Source: Peptococcaceae bacterium (GTDB taxonomy: Bacteria; Bacillota; Desulfitobacteriia; Desulfitobacteriales; Syntrophobotulaceae). Taken from it: a stretch of 64,000 bases of DNA. The notes under the pieces were generated by a model. That model was not told the DNA's origin and ran no database searches. It saw nothing but the letters and a program-made list of their open reading frames with translations. Numbering within the stretch: the stretch's first letter is position 1; each line of letters starts with the position of its first letter. Shown here one piece after another: positions 49,211-53,288 of this stretch. The DNA lies in contig JAAYOJ010000185.1 of assembly GCA_012520405.1 (NCBI GenBank), forward strand, positions 1 through 64,000. The letters run 5' to 3'. The translations under genes and the position numbers were made by a program.

Positions 49211-50918
49211 GGATGGGGGTATTTATGCTTCGCCTTTTCCTTCCTTGGACAAGCTTTGTAATGGGGCAGAGGCCTATGTTTACCCGGGACTTCCTTTGCA
49301 GTTATTGAATATTTTCCGAAGTAATGAACAAGGACTGCTGTCAGAAAGCCAGATCATCGAAAAATTAGCAGTGAGCTTAAGAAAAAATGAGTGCCTGCTT
49401 ACTGAAAAGTTAAGATGGCTAAAGCTTAGTGTTTTTTCTCCGCACGATGAAGATTGTTTAAGACTTGCCCGGAAAGAAGAACTCTTAACCAAACTCCTAA
49501 CAATTGTTCAGGGCCGTCAGGTAACGGAAAATGAGTTTTCTTCTTTAGCCAAGGTCTTAGAAATTAGCGTTACCGAGCTGGCTATCCTACTTCACTTAGC
49601 TGTTATCAAGGGCTATGGAGAGTGGGTACCGGGTTTGAGCCGCCGCAACAACAGCTGGCGATGTGAGCGCTGCGGTAATGAAGACTGCTACCAGATATGG
49701 CCGTCATATTATGGTAACACTGCTACCTGTCTAAGCTGTAAAAGCATTGGACCTCTAAATTCCTTGCAGGTAATTTATCGCTCCCACGAAGAAACCCTCA
49801 AAAGAGAAAAAGAAAAAAAGGCCGGTTCTACTACCTTTACTTCATCGGAGCAGGATTGGCAGTTTACTCCGGCCCAATGCTCGGCAGCCGCTGACCTGCA
49901 ATTATTTGCCCGTGATCCGCTTGCCAAAGAAGCTCTAGTCTGGGCTGCCTGCGGAGCGGGCAAAACAGAAATTACTTTTCCGGTGATTGGGCAATACCTT
50001 GAACATAGTCAAAGTGTGCTTTATGCTGCACCCCGCCTGGATGTTGTGCATGATATCCAGCCCCGCCTGCAGAAATTTTTTAACCCCTGTAAAGTCAAGG
50101 TTATGAGCGGTTTGAGTCCACCTGACTGGACTGCATGCCCCCTTACAGTCGCAACTACTCACCAGGTCCTAAAATTTTCAAGAGCTTTTGATCTTATAAT
50201 CCTGGACGAAATGGATGCTTACCCTTATGCGGGTAATCAAGTATTGGAATATGGTCTAAAGCAGGCCTTAAAAAGAACGGGGAAAACTATTTATTTGTCA
50301 GCGACACCTTCCGCTTCTATTTTAGCAAAAGTAGGTCGTCAGGAATGTTTTCTGACCAGGTTACCGGCAAGATTTCATGGTTACCCTCTTCCTGTTCCTG
50401 AATTCCTGAAGATTAAAGCTCCCAAGATATCTGAGGGAAGAATCCCAGGCTCCCGTTCATTATTGGCAATCGGAGATTATTTGAGAGAATTATTGTTTGA
50501 GGGTCAATTGTTTGTTTTTGTACCTACAGTTTCCCTGGTCAATATTTGGGTTCAGGCCCTAAGCTTATTATTCAAGGATAAAAAAATAACAGGAAGCTGG
50601 AGTTCCGATCCTGATAGAAAGAGGAAGGTCGCTAGTTTTACATCCGGTAATAGTGATGTTATAGTGTGCACCTCTATTTTAGAAAGAGGAATTACGGTCC
50701 ATAAGGCCCAAGCCGTAGTACTATATGCTGATCATGCCCTTTATGATGTCCGAGCACTGGTTCAGATGGCGGGAAGAGTAGGCAGAACAGCCGCTTGCCC
50801 GCAGGGAAGAGTATTATTTATCGCCGGCAAGCAAACTAAAGAAATTACGGCGGCCATTAAGTGGATTGAGGAACAAAATGAATTAGCAACCCAAGGAGGA
50901 TTTCTCCGTGGCCAATAA
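49185..50918 (+). CDS. comFA: Competence ATPase ComFA
   Basis: A DEAD-box-like translocase that helps pull single-stranded DNA into the cell during transformation. A long N-terminal region (residues ~1-155) precedes the four-Cys zinc motif CERCGNEDCYQIW...TCLSCKS. The helicase core has Walker A CGAGKTEITF, DEMD (Walker B), YLSATPS and QMAGRVGRTA. The 577 residues exceed the ~460 of B. subtilis ComFA because of the N-terminal extension. ATG at 49185 follows GGGAGAAG and the end overlaps comFC by 11 bases. Confidence 0.88.
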   Translation: MLFYILRDKDGGIYASPFPSLDKLCNGAEAYVYPGLPLQLLNIFRSNEQGLLSESQIIEKLAVSLRKNECLLTEKLRWLKLSVFSPHDEDCLRLARKEELLTKLLTIVQGRQVTENEFSSLAKVLEISVTELAILLHLAVIKGYGEWVPGLSRRNNSWRCERCGNEDCYQIWPSYYGNTATCLSCKSIGPLNSLQVIYRSHEETLKREKEKKAGSTTFTSSEQDWQFTPAQCSAAADLQLFARDPLAKEALVWAACGAGKTEITFPVIGQYLEHSQSVLYAAPRLDVVHDIQPRLQKFFNPCKVKVMSGLSPPDWTACPLTVATTHQVLKFSRAFDLIILDEMDAYPYAGNQVLEYGLKQALKRTGKTIYLSATPSASILAKVGRQECFLTRLPARFHGYPLPVPEFLKIKAPKISEGRIPGSRSLLAIGDYLRELLFEGQLFVFVPTVSLVNIWVQALSLLFKDKKITGSWSSDPDRKRKVASFTSGNSDVIVCTSILERGITVHKAQAVVLYADHALYDVRALVQMAGRVGRTAACPQGRVLFIAGKQTKEITAAIKWIEEQNELATQGGFLRGQ

Positions 50919-51663
50919 ATTTTTTTTACAAGCTAAGAGCATAGCGGAGCTGCTCTGGTATGAGGAAAGAAAGACTTGCCTTCTCTGCGGTAAGCAAGCA
51001 TCCACAAGCCTATGCCAGGACTGTAGACAGCTTTACTTTAGACCGGAACAGCGACGTTGTCTTAGCTGTGGTAAACTCATAGAGGGGGAAGCAGACCGGT
51101 GTCAAGATTGTCGAGATGGGAATGGCCCTAAATTTTTAAGCAAGGTTACTGCCCTGGGTCATTATGAAGGTGCTTGGAAACAATGTATTCATAATATTAA
51201 GTATAAGGGACAGCCCTATTTGTTAATCGGCTTGGCCGAATATCTTACCTCCTGGGCTGTGAAACAATTGCCTCCCCCTGATTCTATTGTTCCTGTGCCT
51301 CTTCACCCTAACCGTTTAGCCCAAAGGGGTTTTAACCAGGCGGAAGTACTGGCTTCAGTCTTAGCCGGCTGTTTAGGAATTAAACTCAAAGATATACTTT
51401 GCCGAGTTAAGGACACTACACCCCAGTCAGCCCTTGGTAGACAGGAGCGTCTGGTCAACCTTCGCTGTGCTTTTAGTCTCAAACCCGGAATTCAGATCAA
51501 AGAAGAGGTGATTTGGCTGGTTGATGATGTTGTCACCACCGCGGCCACAATTGGGGAGTGTGCGGCTGTTCTAAAAGAATCCGGGGCCCAAGAAGTCTTT
51601 GCCTTTTGCTTGGGCGCAGGGCGTGAAAGCCCAAATAATCCTGATACAGCGAGTATTTTGTAG
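50908..51663 (+). CDS. comFC: ComFC/GntX family phosphoribosyltransferase-like protein
   Basis: A 251-residue protein with an N-terminal double zinc ribbon (CLLCGKQASTSLCQDC and CLSCGKLIEGEADRCQDC) and a type I phosphoribosyltransferase domain whose PRPP loop is VIWLVDDVVTTAATIGEC. NQAEVLASVLAG and TTPQSALGRQERLVNL are ComFC signatures. It works with ComFA in DNA uptake. GTG start overlaps comFA by 11 bases. In many relatives flagellar genes (yvyF, flgM) follow; here a noncoding region does. Confidence 0.92.
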   Translation: MANKFFLQAKSIAELLWYEERKTCLLCGKQASTSLCQDCRQLYFRPEQRRCLSCGKLIEGEADRCQDCRDGNGPKFLSKVTALGHYEGAWKQCIHNIKYKGQPYLLIGLAEYLTSWAVKQLPPPDSIVPVPLHPNRLAQRGFNQAEVLASVLAGCLGIKLKDILCRVKDTTPQSALGRQERLVNLRCAFSLKPGIQIKEEVIWLVDDVVTTAATIGECAAVLKESGAQEVFAFCLGAGRESPNNPDTASIL

Positions 51664-51775
51664 TATCCGAAACAAATTTGTTAGCCGTAATTTACATACA
51701 TCTGTCGCTAGGGCGAGAAAAATGTCTAAAGTAATAGGACCGTGGAACCAAATGTAAAAAAAACAAAACGAAGCC

Positions 51776-51871
51776 CACAAAATTATCCACAACCCAAGCC
51801 AAATAGGAATGGCAAAAAGTCGAGTTACCCACAATATCCACAATCTATTGTGCATAACTTTTTAGTCCTAT
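51776..51871 (+). promoter_or_regulatory. DnaA-box cluster, copy A
   Basis: A 96-base noncoding unit with four DnaA-box-like 9-mers: TTATCCACA (51783-51791, perfect), TTACCCACA (51825-51833, one mismatch to TTATNCACA), ATATCCACA (51834-51842, one mismatch) and an inverted TTATGCACA (51849-51857). It ends with CATAACTTTTTAGTCCTAT. The same arrangement recurs 390 bases downstream with conserved flanking sequence. See copy B. Confidence 0.82.
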
Positions 51872-52165
51872 TAACAGTTAAGCATATTATTTTTTTTGGT
51901 AAGTACCCGATTAAGAGAGCATGGAGATGAAAAAAGATTTCTAACTATAGAAATTTCGGTTTTTAAAAAATCAAATGTTTCTTTGGAAAGAATATATAAA
52001 TATTCAAGTAAATTTTTTCAGGTAAAAGTTAGGGGGCTTTTTCTAATAAATAATTGCCGAACTGAATCCCCGTATCTACAGCAAGCACACATAAGTAAGA
52101 AAATGGAAATAAATGGGACCATTGTACTAATGACAAAACACTTCATAAAACAAAAATACTATGTT
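51872..52165. other. Spacer between the two DnaA-box clusters
   Basis: AT-rich, no recognised gene. A reading frame from 51896 to 52237 exists but overlaps copy B, lacks a ribosome site, and has no family resemblance. There is a T-rich run at 51888-51899 that recurs after copy B (52273-52280) and could be an unwinding-prone stretch. Confidence 0.4.
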
Positions 52166-52260
52166 CACAAAATTATCCACAAAAAAAATGGAAAGATAGG
52201 GCTAAAAAACAAAGTTATTCACATTATCCACAATTGAATGTGCATAACTTTTAGTCCTAT
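52166..52260 (+). promoter_or_regulatory. DnaA-box cluster, copy B
   Basis: Second copy with four 9-mers: TTATCCACA (52173-52181), TTATTCACA (52215-52223), TTATCCACA (52224-52232) and an inverted TTATGCACA (52239-52247); all four fit TTATNCACA. Positions are exactly 390 bases after those of copy A (offsets 0, +42, +51, +66 in each). Flanks CACAAAATTATCCACAA and CATAACTTTTAGTCCTAT are shared, while the 30 bases between the first and second box differ. That conservation of spacing with divergence elsewhere suggests selection on a protein-binding layout. Confidence 0.85.
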
Positions 52261-52415: not shown

Positions 52416-53288
52416 ATGAGAAAAAGTCTTGCGTTACTTTTAGTTATTGCCTTATCAGTGTTTGCACTTGTAGGTTGTGCTTCAAATAACAATACGGGCG
52501 ATAATACAGGCGACTCAGGTGATAAGGTTAAGGTTATCGACATTCAGTTGACCCAAGAGGAATATGCTTTTGGGGTGGATAAAAACCAACCGGAACTTCT
52601 GGCCGAGGTAAACTCCTTTATTGCCAAGATTCAAGCAGATGGAACATTTGAACAAATACTTAAAAACTATTTCGGGGACGGCGAACCTCAGGCGGTTGTA
52701 TCTGCCCAATTGGATAATTCCAAAGACCAATTAGTGGTAGCTACTAATGCTGCCTTTGAACCCTTTGAATATACCGTAGGGGATAAGTATTGTGGTATAG
52801 ATATGGAGATTGCTGCCCTTCTGGCCGAGCACTTAGGCAAAGAGCTTGTAATTAGCAATATGGATTTTGATGCAGTTTGTCTATCCGTGGGGCAGGGCAA
52901 AGCAGATATCGCTATGGCCGGGCTTACTATTAAAGAAGATAGAAAAGAATATGTAACTTTTTCGGATAAATACTATGATGCAGCTCAAAAGATTATTGTC
53001 AGAGGGAATGATTCAACCTTTGATCAGTGTCAAACAGCAGCCGATGTGGAAGCAATTTTAGCAGAAATGGACAGTAAAACCAGAATTGGAGTCCAGACGG
53101 GAACAACCGGACAATTTTACGTTGAAGGCGATGAGGATTGGGGTTTTAGTGGCTATAATGTTGAGTGCGTAGGATACCGGTCAGGCTCTTTGGCGGTTCA
53201 GGATATGATCAACGGCAATATAGACTTGGTTATTATCGACGAAGCCCCTGCTCAGAGTATTTCTAAGGCAATAAATGAACTTAACTAA
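52416..53288 (+). CDS. Amino-acid-binding lipoprotein, circularly permuted
   Basis: A 290-residue extracellular solute-binding protein (SBP_bac_3 type) with lipobox LVGC (Cys21). The segment usually found at the C terminus of these proteins, IDIQLTQEEYAFGVDKNQPELLAEVN...FEQILKNYFG, lies at residues 41-87, directly after the signal and linker. The normal N-terminal strand DQLVVATNAAFEPFEYTVG starts at ~104 and the protein ends at AINELN, just before where that segment would normally occur. The fold should be preserved if the ends are close in space. It is followed by the permease and ATPase. Amino acid specificity (probably polar) is unknown. Confidence 0.85.
   Translation: MRKSLALLLVIALSVFALVGCASNNNTGDNTGDSGDKVKVIDIQLTQEEYAFGVDKNQPELLAEVNSFIAKIQADGTFEQILKNYFGDGEPQAVVSAQLDNSKDQLVVATNAAFEPFEYTVGDKYCGIDMEIAALLAEHLGKELVISNMDFDAVCLSVGQGKADIAMAGLTIKEDRKEYVTFSDKYYDAAQKIIVRGNDSTFDQCQTAADVEAILAEMDSKTRIGVQTGTTGQFYVEGDEDWGFSGYNVECVGYRSGSLAVQDMINGNIDLVIIDEAPAQSISKAINELN

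Follow-up and report, generated by a model that had tools for sequence, protein, structure and literature searches.

Among described systems, the closest to the locus analysed here are the DnaA-box clusters (DBCs) of B. subtilis, in particular the one after gcp/ydiF (gcp being tsaD). This region contains 10 sites and ranks, in vitro, among those that bind DnaA most strongly, with a Kd of 0.15 µM for ATP-DnaA and 0.33 µM for ADP-DnaA, and a 16-fold preference for the ATP form at 55 nM (PMC4447404). B. subtilis without its six DBCs initiates early (PMC5295017; PMC13220808). The strong phenotype requires the loss of all six clusters (PMC5295017), and single elements may therefore matter little. 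In E. coli, the cores of DARS1 and DARS2, read directly, both have the layout (+) N5 (-) N3 (-), i.e. boxes I and II are convergent and 5 bp apart, while box III is in tandem and 3 bp from box II. Boxes I and II work head-to-head, a contact to which ADP release has been linked, and the box spacing is shared by the two loci. DARS1 is located between bioD and uvrB, and the uvrB-moaA interval is devoid of boxes. In E. coli datA, an IHF site parts a tandem pair of boxes from an inverted box (933, 945 and 993 of L275).

The window (the whole stretch of DNA that was analysed, 64,000 nucleotides from the draft genome of a Peptococcaceae bacterium) carries two four-box elements downstream of comFC. 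As argued below, these copies are probably DBCs of the B. subtilis type, ori-proximal and duplicated, which would titrate DnaA.

Two four-box elements downstream of comFC

The preliminary description of this DNA had reported two copies of a DnaA-box group with offsets of 0, 42, 51 and 66, the last box being inverted, at a distance of 390 bp from each other, and this arrangement is borne out (Table 1). Six of the eight boxes are exact TTATNCACA, both one-mismatch boxes being in copy 1. A degenerate half-box (..CCCACA or ..TTCACA), 12 bp before box 1, is found in both copies and is also conserved. In the draft genome (2.54 Mb), exact TTATNCACA occurs 82 times (57 for the reversed control), which corresponds to about one per 31 kb, and 6 of these sites fall inside the 465 bp spanning both copies. 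The cluster is thus far above background, which dispels the concern that the 9-mer might be equally frequent elsewhere. As for the four-box pattern, it occurs twice in the 2.54 Mb draft, both occurrences being these comFC copies. Since boxes with at most one mismatch show no excess across the whole window (64 found, 64.0 expected), the signal lies in clustering and geometry.

Table 1. Boxes of the two elements and flanking genes (positions in the window).
Feature	Position	Strand	Remarks
Copy 1 degenerate half-box AAGCCCACA	51771..51779	+	12 bp before box 1; CACA conserved
Copy 1 box 1 TTATCCACA	51783..51791	+	conserved in relatives
Copy 1 box 2 TTACCCACA	51825..51833	+	one mismatch
Copy 1 box 3 ATATCCACA	51834..51842	+	one mismatch; abuts box 2
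Copy 1 box 4 TTATGCACA	51849..51857	-	inverted; 6 bp from box 3
Copy 2 degenerate half-box ATGTTCACA	52161..52169	+	
Copy 2 box 1 TTATCCACA	52173..52181	+	
Copy 2 box 2 TTATTCACA	52215..52223	+	
Copy 2 box 3 TTATCCACA	52224..52232	+	
Copy 2 box 4 TTATGCACA	52239..52247	-	inverted
comFC	50908..51663	+	upstream neighbour, positional anchor; Pfam DZR_2 and sub-threshold Pribosyltran match
Amino-acid ABC transporter binding protein (SBP_bac_3)	52416..53288	+	downstream neighbour; varies within family

The four-box element is found just 3' of comFC in 18 of the 23 family genomes with a comFC match, so that the conservation in relatives on which the initial proposal had been made to depend is indeed seen. 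The remaining five consist of G012, in which the element is degenerate, three genomes from one genus without the element and one genome whose contig ends too early. Within the window's genus, each of the three members has two copies, so that the duplication predates them. Conservation is concentrated in the boxes, whose columns average 1.7-1.9 bits at comFC versus 0.6-0.8 bits for linker and gap (overall about 1.8 bits, versus 0.4-0.8 bits for linkers). The CACA columns of the half-box reach 1.7-2.0 bits across 21 comFC elements, and nearly every invariant column in an alignment of ten sequences sits in the boxes or in the CACA half-box.

The gene following the element is hpf in some family genomes and a gene for a solute-binding protein (SBP) in others, with unchanged geometry, which indicates that the element is independent of its downstream gene. 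Flagellar genes, which had been expected at this site in relatives, are not what follows comFC in the family, where either hpf-secA or an ABC-transporter binding protein comes next. This has a bearing on another of the early suggestions, namely that the locus is a DnaA-controlled transcriptional region of the downstream ABC transporter operon. Both copies do lie upstream of the SBP gene and DnaA is known to act in transcription as a regulator (PMC4447404), but the same geometry is kept where hpf comes next, the element is also present after tsaD, a site followed by 5-FCL, and promoter-like matches in the region (5, versus a shuffle mean of 3.4, sd 2.0) are not clearly above expectation. Because the element persists while the next gene changes, such a regulatory role appears improbable.

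The draft genome encodes a full DnaA, including its HTH domain. Its dnaA locus (G000:C1, L226 2073-3809) is poorer in exact boxes than the comFC element, with only two. A DnaA-like protein of about 200-400 aa, with an AAA+ domain and a C-terminal end devoid of the usual DnaA signature, is also found across the family and the sister family (G000:C200:4401-4778, i.e. L012 1435-2322; also L035, L036, L037, L038, L040, L042 and L044). Its gene adjoins pfkA, with glnA mostly on the other side.

The tsaD locus and box spacing in other genomes

A third element is found in the window's own genome after tsaD (G000:C49, L225 2407-2482), and in the complete genome G008, from the same family, a second element lies between tsaD (gcp) and 5-FCL. 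All 14 family genomes whose tsaD locus was read have the element there, as do most of the order and most of the sister family (25 of 30 counted within 700 bp; it is further out in G034). Since tsaD/gcp is the gene beside the proven B. subtilis cluster, this conserved copy supports the kinship with B. subtilis DBCs that the preliminary description had listed among several options. Among distant Bacillota, box triples with the 9 + 42-45 bp spacing follow tsaD in 9 of the 30 genomes, with none expected in shuffles; the convergent box 4 was not found in the tsaD clusters of the 30 distant Bacillota read. In the sister family, a further box group lies about 100 bp from the four-box tsaD element (L230 3203-3377 in G027; also in G025, G033, G040 and G053) and has a fixed spacing of its own (17, 9 and 12 bp in several). 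Elsewhere in the window's genome, a small cluster of two direct DnaA boxes and one inverted box with a different spacing (G000:C117 6735-6766, i.e. L224 1735-1766) sits about 70 bp past an ORF ending at 1668 of L224.

The orientation of the tsaD copy is opposite to that of tsaD, which is difficult to reconcile with an RNA hairpin or a transcription terminator after comFC. That idea stems from boxes 3 and 4, an inverted repeat with a short run of T after it. However, no terminator-like site was found in the region, no Rfam family was recognized (the one match was far below the gathering score) and position 5 of boxes 3 and 4 is unpaired (C against C or T) in all 21 comFC elements. A role at the RNA level is thus scarcely credible.

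A scan of a collection of about 85,000 species genomes, in which a distance of 29-59 bp between boxes 1 and 2 was permitted, yielded 49 loci, all in Bacillota. Distances were only 41-45 bp (33 cases) or 52-58 bp (20 cases), counts that are uncorrected for the phylogenetic non-independence of the loci, and part of the 52-58 bp group has an additional box 12 bp before box 2. The offset between the two groups is roughly one helical turn, which would fit boxes sharing one face of the DNA. Outside the family, the geometry is found in the neighbourhoods of recX, uvrA, trxB and trmB (named by eye from sequence), and in Erysipelotrichaceae the same box arrangement adjoins dnaA.

Position relative to oriC

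In the draft genome, dnaA is on a contig other than the window's. In the complete genomes G004, G008, G014 and G021, the comFC element lies to the left of dnaA at a distance of 108-125 kb, or 2.4-4.1% of the chromosome. In complete genomes other than G014, 11-33% of the chromosome separates the tsaD element from dnaA; in G014 this element sits close to the terminus, and ori-proximity is therefore not universal. The terminus-proximal placement in G014 (G014:C1:1627402), versus 20% from dnaA in its close relative G004, is attributed to an inversion or an assembly error.

DnaA boxes that cluster within AT-rich DNA and are closer to consensus than those at the draft genome's dnaA locus could also suit an origin, whether main or second, or a relic mobile replicon, and the arrangement kept beside dnaA in Erysipelotrichaceae goes in the same direction. 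However, sampled GC skew in G008 is negative left of dnaA and mostly positive right of it (values being mixed over the first 120 kb), while the orthologous element is 107.6 kb left of dnaA, within constant negative skew and inside one replichore. GC skew in the window likewise has a single sign across the site. That skew switches at dnaA and not at the element confirms the earlier view that this is not the main origin. With neither adjoining dnaA/dnaN nor a skew switch, the copies are not classed as oriC. The Bacillota origin (rpmH-dnaA-dnaN) has the same 9-mer, but its convergent boxes are 2 bp apart in Desulfosporosinus-like relatives. Neither an initiator nor a transposase or other mobility gene adjoins the element, whose position is orthologous in 18 family genomes, and a mobile replicon, which had also been considered, finds no support. 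Taken together, an origin or a replicon relic is very unlikely.

Titration and nucleotide exchange as possible roles

The rival that deserves most attention is a DARS-like locus, where boxes 4 and 3 would bind ADP-DnaA head-to-head, box 2 would be the third site and ADP release followed by recharging with ATP would promote initiation. When reverse-complemented, boxes 4-3-2 read (+) N5-6 (-) N0 (-), which resembles the core of DARS1 and DARS2 in having a convergent pair and, in tandem with one of its members, a third box. The convergent gap is 5 bp, as in DARS, in nearly all tsaD copies and 6 bp in the comFC copies, including those of the window, and differs from the 2 bp seen at oriC of Desulfosporosinus-like relatives. 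However, DARS loci are said to be absent from B. subtilis (PMC13220808), and four features explain why the element is not classed as a DARS. Boxes 2 and 3 abut (0 bp), whereas DARS boxes II and III are 3 bp apart; box 1, 42-45 bp away, has no counterpart in DARS; the tsaD cluster of the distant Bacillota read has no convergent box; and ATP-DnaA is the form favoured by the B. subtilis gcp cluster (PMC4447404), whereas DARS prefers ADP-DnaA. Although a DARS-like role is unlikely, nucleotide exchange by DnaA remains a live, if less likely, prospect because boxes 3 and 4 converge at nearly the spacing of the DARS core. In its broadest form, the four-box element would be the Bacillota counterpart of DARS, or would combine sequestration with nucleotide exchange, as a fixed and helically phased DnaA scaffold that has been at tsaD since early Bacillota, was copied to comFC in Peptococcaceae and alters the nucleotide state of DnaA in bacteria regarded as devoid of such loci; we give this only a small chance. 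As for datA, a linker of similar size splits its DnaA boxes as well, but order and spacing differ, and identity with datA was rejected because the boxes of the element do not follow its order (tandem boxes, IHF site, inverted box).

Titration of DnaA near the origin appears to be the best choice, since it fits where the copies lie, their duplication and what is known from B. subtilis. The comFC copies are non-coding box clusters outside oriC, like the gcp/ydiF DBC, and the third copy in the same genome is at the same end of the same gene, where the 9 + 42-45 bp spacing recurs in several distant Bacillota. Unlike B. subtilis DBCs, the comFC copies are at a new locus, which is not among the clusters named in the cited literature, are in tandem in the window's genus and have a fixed four-box layout whose convergent box 4 is absent from the 30 distant tsaD regions. 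We infer that DnaA binds these boxes, that binding is cooperative and that titration is the outcome. In this model, a cooperative DnaA complex would nucleate on boxes 2 and 3, adjacent and head-to-tail, with box 1 lying four helical turns upstream and with box 4 pointing towards them. Because of its ori-proximal location, the locus would double in copy number soon after initiation, the tandem duplication in the genus would double the sites again, and the new copies would take up free DnaA and thereby restrain re-initiation. The precise spacing and the convergent fourth box are not obviously needed for titration alone, which counts against this model.

DnaA-box clusters outside oriC in Bacillota have so far been regarded as sinks for DnaA, and a 2026 review calls the control of DnaA nucleotide state in B. 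subtilis unknown (PMC13220808). The genomes read here show a defined architecture, in which boxes are kept and linkers are free, at two unlinked loci across the family and, in part, in Bacillota at large. This architecture provides a concrete motif for locating such loci and links them to a B. subtilis site whose DnaA binding has been measured. Whether any of them also governs the nucleotide state of DnaA thereby becomes testable.
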